Below are positions 5,147-17,360 of a stretch of DNA of 17,360 bases, one piece after another; the stretch's first letter is position 1; each line of letters opens with the position of its first letter. The stretch is taken from NCBI GenBank assembly GCA_029932675.1, contig JAOZPP010000075.1, positions 1-17,360 on the forward strand, in the 5' to 3' direction. The position numbers and the translations under genes are program-made. The stretch comes from a bacterium (GTDB taxonomy: Bacteria > SM23-81 > DAOVCL01). The notes beneath the pieces were generated by a model, which made no database searches, was not told the origin of the DNA, and was given only the letters and a program-made list of their open reading frames with translations.

Positions 5147-5677
5147 ATGAAGGTTGGAGTCTTGAGTGACAGCCATGGGGAGTTAGGTAACTTGAGGAAG
5201 GCGGCCAAGATATTGGCCAACCAAACCGATCTCATTGTGCACCTTGGGGATGATTGGGATGACTGCCGGGTGCTTGAGGAGAGGGGTTCGAAATTCATCA
5301 GGGTTCCTGGGGTCTTCAGCAGTTACTATCAGGACCCTCAGATCCCCAACCGAAGGATAGAGGATTTCGAGGGCTGGAGGGTTCTCCTTACCCATTCCCC
5401 TTCCAGCCATAAGAATGACCTCCCTCAAGATGAGGACCCGGAGGATATCGTCGCTGCAGAAAGGGTTGATGTTGTCCTTTATGGCCATACCCACATCCCC
5501 AAAATTGAGGAATTGCATGGGACTTTGTGGGTAAACCCAGGCCATCTGAAATCTGAGGACAAGAAGGGACATCCCCCCAGCTACGCCCTCTTAGACTTTC
5601 ATCCCGAGGGGGTGCAGGCTAAAATAATCGGCCTGGAGGAAGGGGGGATCCTTCTCACCAGGTCCTTTCACAGATGA
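5147..5677 (+). CDS. YfcE/MJ0936-like metallophosphoesterase
   Basis: A 176-residue calcineurin-like phosphoesterase of the small YfcE type, which hydrolyses phosphodiesters with two metal ions. Visible metal-site motifs are SDSHG (Asp8, His10), GDDWD (Asp35, Asp38), LLTHSPS (His83) and YGHTHIP (His114, His116), with NPGH further on. The usual GN(H/C)(D/E) block is absent: the expected place reads VPGVFSSYYQD (53-63), so the asparagine ligand of metal 2 is missing. The enzyme may use a different ligand or substrate. The start is secure: AGGAGG at 5137-5142 lies four bases before the ATG. The stop overlaps the next start as ATGA (5674-5677), so the two genes are probably translated together. 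The protein has no signal peptide and should be cytoplasmic. The physiological substrate is unknown. Confidence 0.87.
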   Translation: MKVGVLSDSHGELGNLRKAAKILANQTDLIVHLGDDWDDCRVLEERGSKFIRVPGVFSSYYQDPQIPNRRIEDFEGWRVLLTHSPSSHKNDLPQDEDPEDIVAAERVDVVLYGHTHIPKIEELHGTLWVNPGHLKSEDKKGHPPSYALLDFHPEGVQAKIIGLEEGGILLTRSFHR

Positions 5678-11539: not shown

Positions 11540-12835
11540 TTAGGCCTCTTCCTCGATCCACTTCGTGGTCACTGATTTGGGCCTTTCAATGGGGAGCATC
11601 AGGGCCCTATCCCAGACGAGCTCTGCTGTAATCCCCAAAGCCCGGCCTATGCCGAAAAGGACCGTGTAGAAGTCAAACTCCTTCACCCCATAATGGTATT
11701 GGAGACATCCGGAGTGGGCATCGACATTTGGCCAGGGGTTCTTGGCCTTTCCATGCTTCTGTAGGATCCCTGGCACTACCTCATATACCCTGGTCACAGT
11801 CTGCACGATTGGGTCATCTGGGCAGTGTTTCAAGGCAAATTCATGTTGGGCCACAAATCTGGGATCGGTTTTTCGGAGGACGGCATGGCCATAACCAGGG
11901 ATGACCTGCCCGCTGTTCAAAGTATCCCATGCATACTTCTCTATCTGCTCCTTGGTAGGAGTGCCTCCCAATTTCTCCATCATCTCCATTATCCATTTTA
12001 GACACATCTGGTTAGCAAGGCCATGGAGTGGGCCAGCCAGTCCATCTAAGGCAGCGGAGAGGGAATAGTAGACATCGGATAGTGCAGAGGCCACCAGATG
12101 GCCGGTGTGGGCACTGACATTCCCGCTCTCATGGTCCGAATGGAGGAAGAAGTAGAGCCTCATCAAATCCTTATATTCCGGCTTCTCTACCCCCATCATA
12201 TGGGCGAAATTGCCCCCCCAATCGAGGTTAGGGTCAGGTTCGAGATAAATGCCGCCCTTATATTTCAGCCTATAGATGCGCGCACCGATCTGGGGGAGTT
12301 TGGCCAGAAGGTTTAGGCAATCTTCATACATGGGGTCCCAAAAGTCTTCTTTCTTCATCCCCTCGTTATATCCTTTGGCGAAAAGGGATTCACTCTGTAA
12401 GGATAGGATAGCAGCGGAAAACATAGTCATCGGATGGGCATCTTCTGGCATAGCATCCAAAATATCCCAAATATATTGAGGGACTGCCATCCTTTCTTTG
12501 ATCTCTTCCTGGAGGTTTTCCACTTGGGTTTGGTTAGGGATTTCCCCGGTGAGCAACAGCCACCAGTGGGCCTCAGGGAGTGGCGCTTCATTCCCTGGGG
12601 ATTTAGGAAGTTTCTCCATCAGTTGGGGGATCGTATAACCGCGGAAACTTATCCCCTCCATTGGGTCGAGGGAAGAGGTATCACAGACCAAGCACTTCAC
12701 CCCTCTCATTCCGCCGTATGCCTGTTTTACCGTTACCTGAGAGATTACCTTATCCCCCTTCTCGGTGACAATCTTCCTTACCCTTTCCCTCTCCCTGGGG
12801 ATGATCTCTTGCAGCTTTTCTTTCAGTTGACTCAT
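11540..12835 (-). CDS. Citrate synthase, eukaryote-like type I
   Basis: This 431-residue enzyme condenses acetyl-CoA with oxaloacetate to give citrate. The catalytic residues are His271 in GPLHGLANQ, His317 in VIPGYGHAVLRKTDPR and Asp372 in NVDAHSG, each three positions before the pig mitochondrial residues His274, His320 and Asp375. The segment SDHESGNVSAHTGHLVASALSD is also close to the mitochondrial form, unlike the shorter bacterial type, so it belongs to the eukaryote-like branch found in some bacteria. I chose ATG 12835 because AAGGAGGAG lies just upstream with five bases of spacing. The frame is open further: an in-frame ATG at 12889 directly abuts an AAGGAG with no spacing, and a TTG at 12937 is part of the promoter. 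It is the first gene of the five-gene operon. Confidence 0.95.
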   Translation of the reverse strand: MSQLKEKLQEIIPRERERVRKIVTEKGDKVISQVTVKQAYGGMRGVKCLVCDTSSLDPMEGISFRGYTIPQLMEKLPKSPGNEAPLPEAHWWLLLTGEIPNQTQVENLQEEIKERMAVPQYIWDILDAMPEDAHPMTMFSAAILSLQSESLFAKGYNEGMKKEDFWDPMYEDCLNLLAKLPQIGARIYRLKYKGGIYLEPDPNLDWGGNFAHMMGVEKPEYKDLMRLYFFLHSDHESGNVSAHTGHLVASALSDVYYSLSAALDGLAGPLHGLANQMCLKWIMEMMEKLGGTPTKEQIEKYAWDTLNSGQVIPGYGHAVLRKTDPRFVAQHEFALKHCPDDPIVQTVTRVYEVVPGILQKHGKAKNPWPNVDAHSGCLQYHYGVKEFDFYTVLFGIGRALGITAELVWDRALMLPIERPKSVTTKWIEEEA

Positions 12836-12847
12836 CGTCTCCTCCTT
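12836..12847 (-). promoter_or_regulatory. Ribosome-binding site of citrate synthase
   Basis: On the minus strand, AAGGAGG (12847-12841) followed by AGACG precedes ATG 12835. This strong, well-spaced site decides between three in-frame starts of the citrate synthase gene. Confidence 0.85.
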
Positions 12848-12909: not shown

Positions 12910-12937
12910 ATAATATAAATGCAGCCCCCCTTGTCAA
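12910..12937 (-). promoter_or_regulatory. Sigma70-like promoter of the citrate synthase operon
   Basis: Read on the minus strand, a perfect TTGACA (12937-12932) is followed by a 16-bp spacer holding six G, then TATTAT (12915-12910), five of six bases of the -10 consensus. Transcription would begin near 12903 and leave a leader of about 70 nt before the ATG. No obvious operator or riboswitch was seen in the leader. Confidence 0.7.
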
Positions 12938-12985
12938 GGGAAAAGTGAAAATGTAGGATGACCTTAATCAAAGTCCTGTTAACAC

Positions 12986-13023
12986 AAACCTCCCGCAGAT
13001 CCTAAAGGATCTGCGGGAGGTTT
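12986..13023 (-). terminator. Strong hairpin, probable terminator of the protease locus
   Basis: AAACCTCCCGCAGATCC (12986-13002) pairs perfectly with 13007-13023 around loop TAAA, giving 17 bp. On the minus strand the stem ends in GGTTTGTGTT, a weak T-rich tail. It lies after the large surface protein gene and its decayed tail, and before the citrate synthase promoter, so it would insulate the two units. No gene was seen in 12938-13083. Confidence 0.65.
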
Positions 13024-13040
13024 GGTTCATTCTACTGCTA

Positions 13041-13068
13041 TGCTGTCAGGGCAGTGGCCCTGACAGCA
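13041..13068 (-). terminator. Second perfect hairpin beside the terminator
   Basis: TGCTGTCAGGGC (13041-13052) pairs perfectly with GCCCTGACAGCA (13057-13068) around loop AGTG, giving 12 bp. It has no T run of its own, lies 17 bp from the larger hairpin and comes first for transcripts on the minus strand. It may assist termination or protect RNA ends. Confidence 0.5.
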
Positions 13069-13083
13069 CAATTACATCTCCTT

Positions 13084-13360
13084 TTACCTTATTAACAGCA
13101 TCTCCTTAGGTATCCGAAAAATCGTTTGTCTGGATCCGGTAGAAATAGATGCCAGTGGAAACACCCTTGCCATTGCTATTCCTGCCATCCCAAAAAGCCT
13201 TGTGGTAGCCAGCTTTCTCTTCCTCATTCACTAATGTCGCCACTCTTTGCCCCATTGGGTTGTAGACCGTCAGCAGAACATAGCCGCTGTGGGGCAAAGC
13301 ATATTCAATCTCAGTTTCTGGGTTGAAGGGGTTGGGATAGTTCTGGGAGAGATAGTAACT
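13084..13360 (-). pseudogene. Decayed second type IX-style sorting domain
   Basis: On the minus strand, right behind the stop of the large surface protein and in the same frame, the sequence reads SYYLSQNYPNPFNPETEIEY and continues through YNPMGQRVATLVNEEEKAG and STGIYFYRIQTNDFSDT. This is a complete sorting domain of the kind that ends the neighbouring protein. It is cut off in front by stops TAG (13378-13376), TAA (13372-13370) and TAA (13363-13361). At the end, TAA at 13108-13106 stops it early; removing the T at 13108 restores KEMLLIR and a stop at 13086-13084, the normal end of such a domain. It therefore looks like the relic of a lost neighbour. A GTG- or TTG-started 63-residue peptide (13106-13297) can be read from it but is unlikely to be a gene. 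Confidence 0.75.
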
Positions 13361-13375
13361 TTACGGCAGTTAGGG

Positions 13376-16300
13376 CTACTTGAGCACTACCATCTTCCTT
13401 GCCTTGGTAAAATCCCCAGCCTTAATTCTGTAGAAGTAGATTCCACTGGAGAAAGCACTTGCATCCCACCTGGCTGTCTTGTAACCAGCCTTCTGCTTCC
13501 CATCAACCAGGGTTACAACCTTTTGACCCAAAATGTTGTAAATCTCTAACTTCACCCTACAATCCACAGGCAAGCTATACCTGATCTGGGTGACTGGGTT
13601 GAAGGGATTGGGGTAGTTCTGGGAGAGCTCAAAGCTCTTGGGTAACTTTCCATCTTGATCCGGATGATCAGAGCCAAACTTGAGGCCATAGCCTGAGCCA
13701 TACAACCCCGTCCTGCGCAAGTCATGATGAAAGGTCGGCCATACCATGCCTTCCTGACTATAGGTGCCAGAAAGGTCCCAGCAGAAGACCTTGTTATGAG
13801 AAGCGAAGACTACCTCCACATCCCCATCTCCGTCAAGATCACTTATGGCTGGAGTTGAGGCGAGATACCACTCAGCCACTACCGGCCATCCCAGAACCTG
13901 GCTACCATCTGAATTCCAGGCATATAACCTCTCGTCTGCCGAGGCGGCCAAAACCTCAATATCCCCGTCTCCATCTATGTCTCCCAGAATAGGGGAGGAT
14001 TGCACGGCGATGACCGAGTTCGCCCGCTCCACCGGCCAGCCAGCCAATGGCTGCCCTTGCCAATTCCAGGCATAGACATTGTCCCTTATGGCACAGACAA
14101 CATCCAACTGTCCATCACCATCAACATCCCCAATTGCCGGGGAGCCTGGGATATCATCTATCCAACCTAGAGAGCTACTTACCGGCCAGCCAGAGGCCCC
14201 AGTGCCGTCCTTGTGTAGGACATAAACCGTGTGATCATCGGTCATCACTATTATCTCCAAGCCTGAATAATCAGGATCCAGATCAGCTAAGGCCGGAGAC
14301 GCCGAGATCCAGTCACCTCGAGAGTCTCCAATACTCACCGGAAACTCGGGCAGCTCATTCGCATACCCCTTGGAACCTTTATCGTCATGAATCTCTGGCT
14401 CTTTCCCATCTCCATCCCAGGCATGAACCTTGCCATCCCTTCCCCCTACCACCACCTCCAGATCTCCATCCCCATCCAGATCGCCTATGGCCGGTGTGGA
14501 ATAGTTATACTTTCCCCCGATGAGGGCAAAGCTACCATCTGAGTTCATCACCCCACTCCCGTCTGGATGCCAGGCATAGACTATGCCATCCTTTGCACAG
14601 ACCACCACCTCTAAATCACCATCTCCATCAAGATCACCCAAGGCAGGCGAGGAGAGCATAGAGCTTGAATCTATCTGAACAGGCCAGTTTGAGAGTGGGA
14701 CTCCGTTTCTATCCCAGGCATAGACCTTTCGGTCAGGGCCTGCAGAGGCAATTACCACATCCAAGGTGTCATCCCCGTCAATATCCCCTACAGCAGGGGA
14801 GGCCCAGAAGCCCGCCGAGTCATCCCCTAAGGCGAAGATGCCATCGTTGCCTGGTATGTAGGAACTTCCATCCCACCTGAAGCAGTAGAGTTTGTTGCTC
14901 AGGCTGGCTATCAATACCTCTTTCTTCCCATCACCATCCAAATCTACTATAGCCGGCGATGAGAAGATAAGCTTATCATCCAAGGTAACCGGCCAACCTG
15001 ATTGATATTTTGGATTTGTGGCCGCAGTTAGGGTATCAGACCACCTACTCTGATTACCCGAAGAGTCTACCGCAGCAATCAGGTAGTCGTAGGTTTTACC
15101 AATTTCCAGATCCGTATCGTGGAAGTAGGATGTTCCCTCAATTAAATCCCTGTTTACCTTCTGGTAACTTCCTCCCCCATCCCTGCGATAGATATTATAA
15201 CCAGCGAGATCGGGATCTGAGGGCTTCTCCCAGAAAAGCTCAATGCCTGTTGAATCAGGCAGATAACTTATACCCTCAGGTGAAGAGGGAGGGGAGAGCT
15301 CAAAGTCCTGGCTCCAGATCAATCCACGACTATCAGTGATGGTGAGGGTGAAGAGATAGGGTGGAGTTGTATTAAAATAGATTTCATCAAAAGCATCTAA
15401 AACCCAAATACTGGTGTCAGGAGGGATTTGACCAACATACTCCGTGCTGTCGGTGAAGGGGATACCGGACATAGCAGTAGAAAGATAGACCCAGACCCCT
15501 TCGGCTGAACCATGACCTGAGTTTTTCAACAAGACAGATAGTTTCACCAGTTCGCCTGGTTCTGCAACTCCGTTCCCATTGTTATTCCACAAGTACTCAG
15601 GATCATCATCAACAATATGCCCGATGTGGGCAACATTGGGGGCATAGGCCTTGAGGATAAGCTGATCATCCCAGGACTCAAGAGGATTTGTGGTGGTGAA
15701 GGACCATACAGAGGACCAGCCGCTGGCACAGCTTCCCGCCTTGTAGGCCTTCACCCTCCACCAATACTTGGTCCCATTTGCCAGATCCACTGTATCCTGG
15801 GTTCCCTGGATGCCGCCCCGGTTATACTCCGGACTGGAGAAGTTTGAGTTATTGTCCACCTGCAACCTGTAATAGCTTGCCCCAGAGGAGCTGTTCCAGT
15901 CCAAGGTGATGTTATTCCAGCCCAGTCCAGTGGCGCCATTAGAAGGGGAGCTCAGGCTAGGGGTAGATGGAGGATCGCAGGGGTCTGGGTCATCTGGCAG
16001 ATCGGGAATAGGAATGCTGGGAATATCAAGGGGAGCAGTACTGGACTTGCCTTCCTCTTCCTCTACCATATTTAACTTAAAATTTAGCTTGTGCTCGTCC
16101 GGACAATCGGAAGCCACCTCCAATGTATATGGCAGGGCAATGCTTTGGCCGGGATCAATGTTCCTGTAGTGATTGTAATAAGTCAAAATATCCACCCACT
16201 CATCATCGCAGCTTAATGTAGCCCCCACATTACAGGCCCTTCCCTTACCACTGTTTTTCAGGGTGAGATAGAGATCGACCTTCTCTCCAGCCTCCAGAAT

Positions 16301-17360
16301 ACCATTGCCATTGCCCCAAGTTCCATCATCAATGCTGTAATCGGAGATGTAGAGGCTGGGTGATTGAGGATTTGAGTTTACCTGGATCGTCTTCTCCTCA
16401 GGGAAGAAGTTGTGCTTGCTGACCACCAGACTTGCCTCCCCAGGGGTCTCCGGAGAAAACTGAAAGGTCACATCTCCACTGCTATTTGTGGTATCAACAG
16501 CATAGTATTCATCTCCCTTCATCAGGCAGACCACAGCCCCGGGCACAACAGGGTTGGGGTCGCCCTTGCCAGTAGGGTCGCTATTTACACTTTCCACATG
16601 AACAGTAAAACTTGAAGTCCCCGTATTCACCACCGAAGGGCAACTGACAGAAAAAGCCTTAGGCGTATCAGTCCAGATCTCCATCTGCGGATCACCAAGG
16701 AGAAGATAGGAAAATACCATTAATCTGTTAGTTCCATCAAACATTTTGGCCCATTTGATAAAAGGAATTTTTGACAAGGCATTTGCGCGCCCAATTTGGT
16801 GGATCCCGTCGCCAAAAACTTGTTTAAAGAATTCTCTATTGATCCTTCTATAGAACCTATAGGTGTAATTCAAACTTGTACTGCCTATGTAACCAACTCC
16901 TCCTCCAGTTGGATTCAACACGAAATGTTTGGAAAAACAATCATGGTCAATGGCATTAGCCCAACAGGTTGATGAATACATAACGGAATAGCGGTCGGTA
17001 TTAGAAAGTTCATCCATATCCTGATTACAAATATACTCTCGAGGACTATTTCTGACATCTATCTTGTCGTAGCTGCCATGACTAAAGTTCACTATTAGGT
17101 TATATCCTTCATTCATTGCTGTCAGGACATCTTCTCTATTCTCTGTTCCTAAGGTATCATCATATAATTTCGTTTTAGTAAAATAGCTGGGAACATAAGA
17201 GGCCAGCGTATCACAGTACTCTCCTCCATCACCATCCCAGAATATTTCCTCCCCCAGAAGAAGCATTTTAATACGATAATCTGGATATGTGGTATCCCTT
17301 TCATAGTTATTACTCGGAGCACTAAATAGTTTACATCTCACGTTGCTGCATATTGAACAT
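13376..17360 (-). CDS. Gingipain-like C25 peptidase with FG-GAP propeller and sorting domain, 5' partial
   Basis: The frame is open to the window edge (CSICSNV before the GTG at 17341), so the signal peptide and N-terminus are missing and that GTG is not the start. Counting from it, 1321 residues are visible. The C25 cysteine-peptidase part covers about 1-225, with His88 in VNFSHGS and Cys126 in YSSTCWANAID, then the typical KHFVLNPTGGGVGYIGST and LLLGDPQMEIW. An Ig-like module follows (228-325), then a CARDB-like one (327-440), an Fn3-like one (458-552), a second CARDB-like one (560-680), a second Fn3 (684-777) and an FG-GAP propeller (780-1205). It ends in a sorting domain (1236-1321: LSQNYPNPFNP to KMVVLK). 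This layout fits a secreted, surface-attached protease exported by a type IX-like system. Substrate and specificity are unknown. Confidence 0.9.
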   Translation of the reverse strand, partial: CSICSNVRCKLFSAPSNNYERDTTYPDYRIKMLLLGEEIFWDGDGGEYCDTLASYVPSYFTKTKLYDDTLGTENREDVLTAMNEGYNLIVNFSHGSYDKIDVRNSPREYICNQDMDELSNTDRYSVMYSSTCWANAIDHDCFSKHFVLNPTGGGVGYIGSTSLNYTYRFYRRINREFFKQVFGDGIHQIGRANALSKIPFIKWAKMFDGTNRLMVFSYLLLGDPQMEIWTDTPKAFSVSCPSVVNTGTSSFTVHVESVNSDPTGKGDPNPVVPGAVVCLMKGDEYYAVDTTNSSGDVTFQFSPETPGEASLVVSKHNFFPEEKTIQVNSNPQSPSLYISDYSIDDGTWGNGNGILEAGEKVDLYLTLKNSGKGRACNVGATLSCDDEWVDILTYYNHYRNIDPGQSIALPYTLEVASDCPDEHKLNFKLNMVEEEEGKSSTAPLDIPSIPIPDLPDDPDPCDPPSTPSLSSPSNGATGLGWNNITLDWNSSSGASYYRLQVDNNSNFSSPEYNRGGIQGTQDTVDLANGTKYWWRVKAYKAGSCASGWSSVWSFTTTNPLESWDDQLILKAYAPNVAHIGHIVDDDPEYLWNNNGNGVAEPGELVKLSVLLKNSGHGSAEGVWVYLSTAMSGIPFTDSTEYVGQIPPDTSIWVLDAFDEIYFNTTPPYLFTLTITDSRGLIWSQDFELSPPSSPEGISYLPDSTGIELFWEKPSDPDLAGYNIYRRDGGGSYQKVNRDLIEGTSYFHDTDLEIGKTYDYLIAAVDSSGNQSRWSDTLTAATNPKYQSGWPVTLDDKLIFSSPAIVDLDGDGKKEVLIASLSNKLYCFRWDGSSYIPGNDGIFALGDDSAGFWASPAVGDIDGDDTLDVVIASAGPDRKVYAWDRNGVPLSNWPVQIDSSSMLSSPALGDLDGDGDLEVVVCAKDGIVYAWHPDGSGVMNSDGSFALIGGKYNYSTPAIGDLDGDGDLEVVVGGRDGKVHAWDGDGKEPEIHDDKGSKGYANELPEFPVSIGDSRGDWISASPALADLDPDYSGLEIIVMTDDHTVYVLHKDGTGASGWPVSSSLGWIDDIPGSPAIGDVDGDGQLDVVCAIRDNVYAWNWQGQPLAGWPVERANSVIAVQSSPILGDIDGDGDIEVLAASADERLYAWNSDGSQVLGWPVVAEWYLASTPAISDLDGDGDVEVVFASHNKVFCWDLSGTYSQEGMVWPTFHHDLRRTGLYGSGYGLKFGSDHPDQDGKLPKSFELSQNYPNPFNPVTQIRYSLPVDCRVKLEIYNILGQKVVTLVDGKQKAGYKTARWDASAFSSGIYFYRIKAGDFTKARKMVVLK
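13727..15007 (-). repeat. Eight FG-GAP/VCBS repeat units
   Basis: Within the large surface protein, eight units about 47-66 residues apart each carry a strand, then a calcium-loop motif such as SSPAIVDLDGDGKKEVLIAS, and often GWPV and VYAW. The acidic motifs start at residues 800, 853, 903, 954, 1020, 1072, 1121 and 1168 (counted from the GTG at 17341). In the DNA they show as recurrent TCNCCATC-type blocks. The units would fold as a beta-propeller that binds calcium. The fifth unit (DLDPDYSGLE) lacks the usual DGDG. Confidence 0.85.

Follow-up and report, generated by a model that had tools for sequence, protein, structure and literature searches.

The protease locus

The analysed window, that is, the whole stretch of DNA under study, is an entire contig of 17,360 bases (C68) from a genome of 3.03 Mb in 116 contigs (G000). 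The features that matter for the following analysis are:

11540..12838, minus strand: citrate synthase, the next gene, on the same strand as the protease (domain matches)
12910..12937, minus strand: promoter-like site TTGACA-N16-TATTAT (11/12) for citrate synthase (sequence)
12985..13024, no strand assigned: hairpin with an 18-bp stem, a probable (bidirectional) terminator (sequence)
13041..13068, minus strand: palindrome CTGTCAGGGCCACTGCCCTGACAG from a dispersed family with about 18 sites in the genome (sequence search)
13084..13107, minus strand: terminal residues of CTD2, KEMLLIR-stop, an out-of-frame remnant (sequence)
13109..13369, minus strand: CTD2, a stranded sorting domain with the leader LP-stop-S (TAA 13363-13361), running from NYPNPFNP to NDFSDT and closed by TAA 13108-13106 (sequence and profile matches)
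13370..13375, minus strand: spacer of 6 nt (CCC TAA) that separates the CTD2 leader from the stop of the protease and holds the first downstream in-frame stop (sequence)
13376..13645, minus strand: CTD1, the live sorting domain of the protease (LPKSFELSQNYPNPFNP...KARKMVVLK-stop; domain matches; dS to the nearest relatives at least 1.09)
13376..17359, minus strand: gene of a C25 (gingipain-type) protease that carries FG-GAP repeats and, at its C-terminus, a type A sorting domain, the N-terminus being lost at the contig end (Peptidase_C25 4.3e-30, FG-GAP_3 1.5e-31, Por_Secre_tail 1.9e-10)

The protease ends on the minus strand with ...KARKMVVLK-TAG (stop 13378-13376), and its sorting domain reaches 47.3 bits against TIGR04183 (cut-off 23). 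A profile search for the SprA and PorV families found SprA and several PorV-family proteins above cut-off in the genome, so that its sorting domains (CTDs) have a translocon of the type IX secretion system (T9SS) to serve. The citrate synthase at 11540-12838 is of the eukaryote-like type (PRK09569 668 bits; TIGR01793 616 bits, the latter slightly below cut-off). It is followed on the same strand by genes for apparent aconitase-type large and small subunits, an isocitrate dehydrogenase and a member of the acetate kinase family.

A second sorting domain behind the protease stop

In the assembled sequence, the frame of the protease continues after the TAG on the minus strand with CCC-TAA (13372-13370)-CTG-CCG-TAA (13363-13361), followed by SYYLSQNYPNPFNPETEIEYALPHSGYVLLTVYNPMGQRVATLVNEEEKAGYHKAFWDGRNSNGKGVSTGIYFYRIQTNDFSDT and TAA (13108-13106). 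Translated from six bases past the TAG, this gives LP-stop-SYYLSQNYPNPFNP...GIYFYRIQTNDFSDT-stop. The initial annotation had described a second, diverged sorting domain in the protease frame past two further stops, with the frame broken just before the last residues. Both descriptions are confirmed, coordinates included, and the residues KEMLLIR-stop are indeed found in the next frame (13107-13084). The second in-frame TAA falls within the leader of CTD2, where LP-stop-SYYLSQN aligns to LPKSFELSQN of CTD1. Since it replaces a residue of the leader, it is a lesion of CTD2 and more than part of a mere spacer.

CTD2 scores 121.7 bits (iE 7.7e-37) in a profile scan of the regions downstream of CTD gene ends, which rules out a chance resemblance. 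Against TIGR04183 it reaches 30.6 bits (cut-off 23), and an 83-residue piece of it 32.6 bits. The CTD profile was built from 72 seed sequences from CTD loci, and with 125 bits CTD2 lies close to the median of 122 bits that 132 near-complete CTDs from its genome reach. It shares with the T9SS type A sorting domain (TIGR04183 / PF18962 Por_Secre_tail) NYPNPFNP at the start, a YN..GQ.V..LV core and a GIYFYR strand near the end, but it differs from such domains in the missing cargo body, the stop in the leader and the C-terminal motif that is out of frame. Judged by its sequence, CTD2 is therefore a T9SS type A sorting domain, though not by the functional definitions.

CTD1 and CTD2 have 47 of 89 aligned residues in common, with saturation at synonymous sites (pS 0.79). 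A fresh tandem duplication in place, which the initial annotation had already ruled out, can thus be rejected. Nevertheless, CTD2 agrees with 19 of the 21 columns whose identity is 85% or more, and departs from them only by one exchange of S to T and by the out-of-frame C-terminus. By a rough estimate rather than a formal test, about four changes in twenty conserved codons would be expected at one substitution per ten sites, while about one is seen. The conserved columns and the mid-range score together place the loss of CTD2 recently in relation to its divergence from CTD1, and selection evidently still acted on CTD2 as a real tail until recently.

Expression of CTD2 and its 3' flank

No single open frame runs from an exported cargo protein into CTD2 as its C-terminus: the domain occupies an open frame of 84 residues with three stops before it, and among the reading frames of the locus neither a body nor a signal peptide was found in frame upstream. 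Its C-terminal motif (the last residues with the conserved lysine) lies in another frame. In Porphyromonas gingivalis this motif is required for export, and removal of two residues from the C-terminus of RgpB or replacement of the last six residues of PorU blocks it (PMC11285876).

The region between CTD2 and citrate synthase holds the hairpin with the 18-bp stem. Related copies of this hairpin occur elsewhere in the genome, two of them about 55-85 bp past other CTD genes. The strong promoter-like site ahead of citrate synthase would make this gene independent of readthrough. Taken together, the stops, the absent body and signal peptide, the lost C-terminal motif, the hairpins and the separate promoter-like site indicate that CTD2 is most likely untranslated, most likely as 3' untranslated DNA of the protease transcript, and all of these features speak against its expression as a working tail. 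Homologous to a functional part of a gene, carrying disabling mutations and lacking an intact reading frame, CTD2 fits the definition of a pseudogene. The relic is mainly a warning to annotators not to enter it as a gene or as a second tail.

The palindrome at 13041-13068 belongs to a family of the form CTGTCAGGGC...GCCCTGACAG with about 17 other sites in the genome, several of them at the loci L166-L180. Five copies lie about 25-80 bases past CTD genes (on contigs C21, C56, C76, C84 and C95), which, judged by eye, is above expectation.

Search for further stranded domains

Only at this locus, out of 211 CTD gene ends scanned in several genomes, does a CTD follow on the same strand within 700 bases downstream, and the remaining CTD matches behind these ends belong to convergent neighbours. 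A junction query bridging two successive CTDs (last part of the first, first part of the second) was run on 290 genomes and returned no case besides this locus (102.8 bits here, 65.6 bits for the next best). This result applies to junctions in the same frame, to genus-like sequences and to 21 scored candidates per genome. Of 143 CTD records from the genome itself, collected from stretches around its CTDs, all end a body in one frame except CTD2, a cargo gene on contig C29 with a frame break, and fragments lying where a contig or one of these stretches ends. Five further orphan candidates with short frames (C28, C74, C85, C95 and C108) were dismissed, as all of them lie at contig ends. In the gene on C29 (L121, positions about 5340-5415), a whole cargo gene, body and CTD stand in different frames, either by damage or by a sequencing error. 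The CTD matches listed for the genome are free of internal stops under the standard code.

Exchange of tails between cargo genes

The comparison of all CTDs of the genome with their bodies (of which mostly about 350 residues were compared) resulted in 13 pairs with a pS below 0.45 but with bodies lacking detectable homology. In 7 of the 13 both genes lie on one contig, compared with 1.6% of all such pairs; under label shuffles the mean number of same-contig pairs was 0.23, and none of 10,000 shuffles reached 7.

The clearest example is provided by two neighbours on contig C98 (29286-32613, L273), whose CTDs are 94.7% identical over 283 bases. The bodies of C98:29627 and C98:31253 are unrelated, with 27-45% identity in aligned windows, which is chance level. 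The CTDs show 87-100% per window (pS 0.11), and identity drops to chance just past the stop. C76:13211, which has a body paralogous to that of C98:29627, is 85-100% identical to that gene in most windows, but only as far as 120 nt into the CTD, after which identity is 52-60%. Since the identity of the paralogs ends inside the CTD, the distal part of the domain was replaced in one of these two genes, most simply from the neighbour, and the replaced part is probably a gene-conversion tract.

The second example concerns C61:47938 and C89:1327 (C61:47597-49274, L233; C89:242-1919, L253), which share a tract of 310 bases at 99% identity next to different bodies. The tract begins about 10 bases into the CTD, spans the stop and ends with a terminator-like hairpin. 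The bodies share just one stretch further upstream (42% over 141 residues), and the tract has the appearance of a cassette of tail plus terminator.

Near-identical tails on non-homologous bodies and paralogous bodies with different tails thus both occur in this genome, and we conclude from these alignments that tails are exchanged between its genes, mostly between neighbours. The suggestion of the initial annotation that such bacteria exchange secretion tails is supported by these genes; in a partial sample of 39 CTDs from G003, a relative of another family, exchange was not evident. The exchanges replace tails in place and do not by themselves explain CTD2.

Origin of CTD2

We consider it probable that CTD2 is the untranslated relic of a T9SS cargo gene that followed the protease and whose body was removed by a recent deletion. 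The deletion as an event, the order of its steps and its recency are what we infer from the present arrangement. The cargo gene would originally have been located downstream of the protease on the same strand, ending in CTD2 and its own hairpins. The deletion would have reached from just past the stop of the protease to the beginning of the neighbor's sorting domain, taking away the neighbor's promoter, signal peptide and body. The remaining tail would then have decayed, acquiring the nonsense codon in the leader and the frame break at the C-terminus.

The main argument comes from the distances of both domains to all others. In comparisons with the dozen CTDs of lowest dN, the lowest dS to the nearest relatives is 1.09 for CTD1, and 1.81 or saturated for CTD2, and no recent donor for either was found among the CTDs compared. 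Both are diverged from all of these, therefore neither was recently copied in, and they look like the two native tails of neighboring genes. Lacking a close donor for either domain, the deletion of a tandem cargo body is the best reading. Further observations count for it: runs of cargo genes on the same strand are common in the genome (C116, C56, C3, C14 and C76), CTD2 keeps 3' hairpins resembling those behind other CTD genes, its sequence is well conserved although body and signal peptide are absent in frame, and SprA and PorV families are present. Its weak point is that the deletion has to end almost exactly at the start of the neighbor's CTD, for which we estimate a chance of about 1 in 100 for a typical gene. 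That no trace of the neighbor's body is left at the locus also counts against it.

Nor did the comparison with relatives reveal an intact neighbor gene. The sole species of the same genus compared (G001) has neither a match to the citrate synthase nor a close ortholog of the protease, and a scan of named genomes with the citrate synthase yielded nothing nearer than 67% identity and thus no near relative. An orthologous locus of the interval between protease and citrate synthase was not found in the genomes compared. The CTDs of the best protease homologs (40-46%) are about equidistant from CTD1 and CTD2 and favor neither of the two as the native tail.

The end of a lost cargo gene, as proposed in the initial annotation, is accordingly the best-supported reading of CTD2, but not its proposed cause, recombination between sorting domains. 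Crossing-over between two CTDs is rejected on logic, as it would delete the gene between them and leave a single hybrid domain, whereas here both domains are complete and diverged.

It is also possible, although rather unlikely in our view, that CTD2 is the original tail of the protease and was stranded, together with its terminator, when recombination or template switching between CTDs placed a second tail, CTD1 including its stop, ahead of it. Tracts from the start of the domain to the stop do move between unrelated genes of this genome, the junction matches both domain borders as an inserted tract would, and CTD1 has no hairpin of its own. However, the best dS of CTD1 offers no near donor although the loss of CTD2 looks recent, and the documented exchanges swap the tail in place without leaving a relic, none being found behind the other CTD gene ends scanned.

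A more far-reaching idea, that stranded tails like CTD2 are footprints of an active movement of tail cassettes (sorting domain, stop and terminator) among neighboring cargo genes and perhaps serve as silent donors, appears improbable to us. A fault of sequencing, assembly or binning that joined two contigs at their CTDs is very unlikely. The assembly is fragmented and CTDs are dispersed repeats, but the CTDs of the genome are mostly less than 80% identical to each other at the DNA level. Moreover, no match in the genome spans the junction (matches end at the stop of CTD1 and resume inside CTD2), so that there is no shared word to misjoin on, and a misjoin leaves the nonsense codon in the leader and the terminal frame break unexplained.

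We give very little credit to the view that CTD2 is kept untranslated as a silent donor, in order to overwrite expressed tails by gene conversion. Other genes of the genome do show conversion of their CTDs, and an expressed CTD lies right next to CTD2, but the latter is single-copy, no expressed tail is recently like it, and with its damaged C-terminus a full conversion would yield a dead tail. The related proposal of the initial annotation, a tail cassette that could be swapped onto the protease, is not supported for this copy: the leader is nonsense-mutated, the C-terminal motif is out of frame and there is no recent copy among the CTDs compared (dS at least 1.81 or saturated). Finally, an in-frame array in which the stops are read through or recoded, sometimes giving the protease a second tail, is hardly credible despite the shared frame, given the consecutive TAG, TAA and TAA, the frame break ahead of the C-terminal motif, the stop-free CTD matches listed for the genome and the lack of a second case in the 290 genomes queried.

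Relation to known systems

As the most likely remains of a deleted cargo gene, CTD2 appears to be a recently stranded, dead sorting domain and in itself ordinary gene debris of low novelty. Like the truncated pseudogenes that arise by deletion in tandem arrays, it is a 3' gene fragment that follows an intact neighbor and carries nonsense and frame lesions; unlike them, it corresponds to one domain. Orphan C-terminal tips are known from rhs and cdiA genes, where they are toxin modules with immunity genes and often still usable for recombination. CTD2 shares with them the position of a displaced C-terminal module behind a live one in the same orientation, whereas it is a single damaged export signal; we regard this likeness as a lead only and claim no membership. 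A limited literature search found no papers on stranded CTDs, on local homogenization of CTDs or on recombination of sorting domains.

The main interest lies in the exchange of tails as a side result: among about 145 sorting domains, local recombination keeps the tails of unrelated secreted proteins similar, and the borders of its tracts fall at the domain and, in one case, at the terminator. The KLIKK proteases of Tannerella forsythia belong to unrelated catalytic families but carry nearly identical CTDs, and their authors propose a fusion of existing or acquired proteases to shared terminal sequences (PMC4404884, PMC5445135). Near-identical CTDs on unrelated bodies are likewise found here (C98, C61/C89 and C14). 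In contrast to the KLIKK proteases, the tract is a single CTD (once with terminator), the examined cargo is mostly non-protease and the exchange is concentrated among neighbors. Such an exchange would help to explain the spread of one export signal over many unrelated proteins, a question that was raised but not answered for the KLIKK proteases.

A further peculiarity of several CTDs of this genome and of G001 is a short in-frame insertion in the same loop, which connects the strand following NYPNPFNP with the VYN strand (L033, L034, L089, L097, L115 and L123). It is built of short repeats such as LSAVRGRPSAV, LSAVSSQQSAV and PAVSDQRSAV, as if it were a small repeat element.
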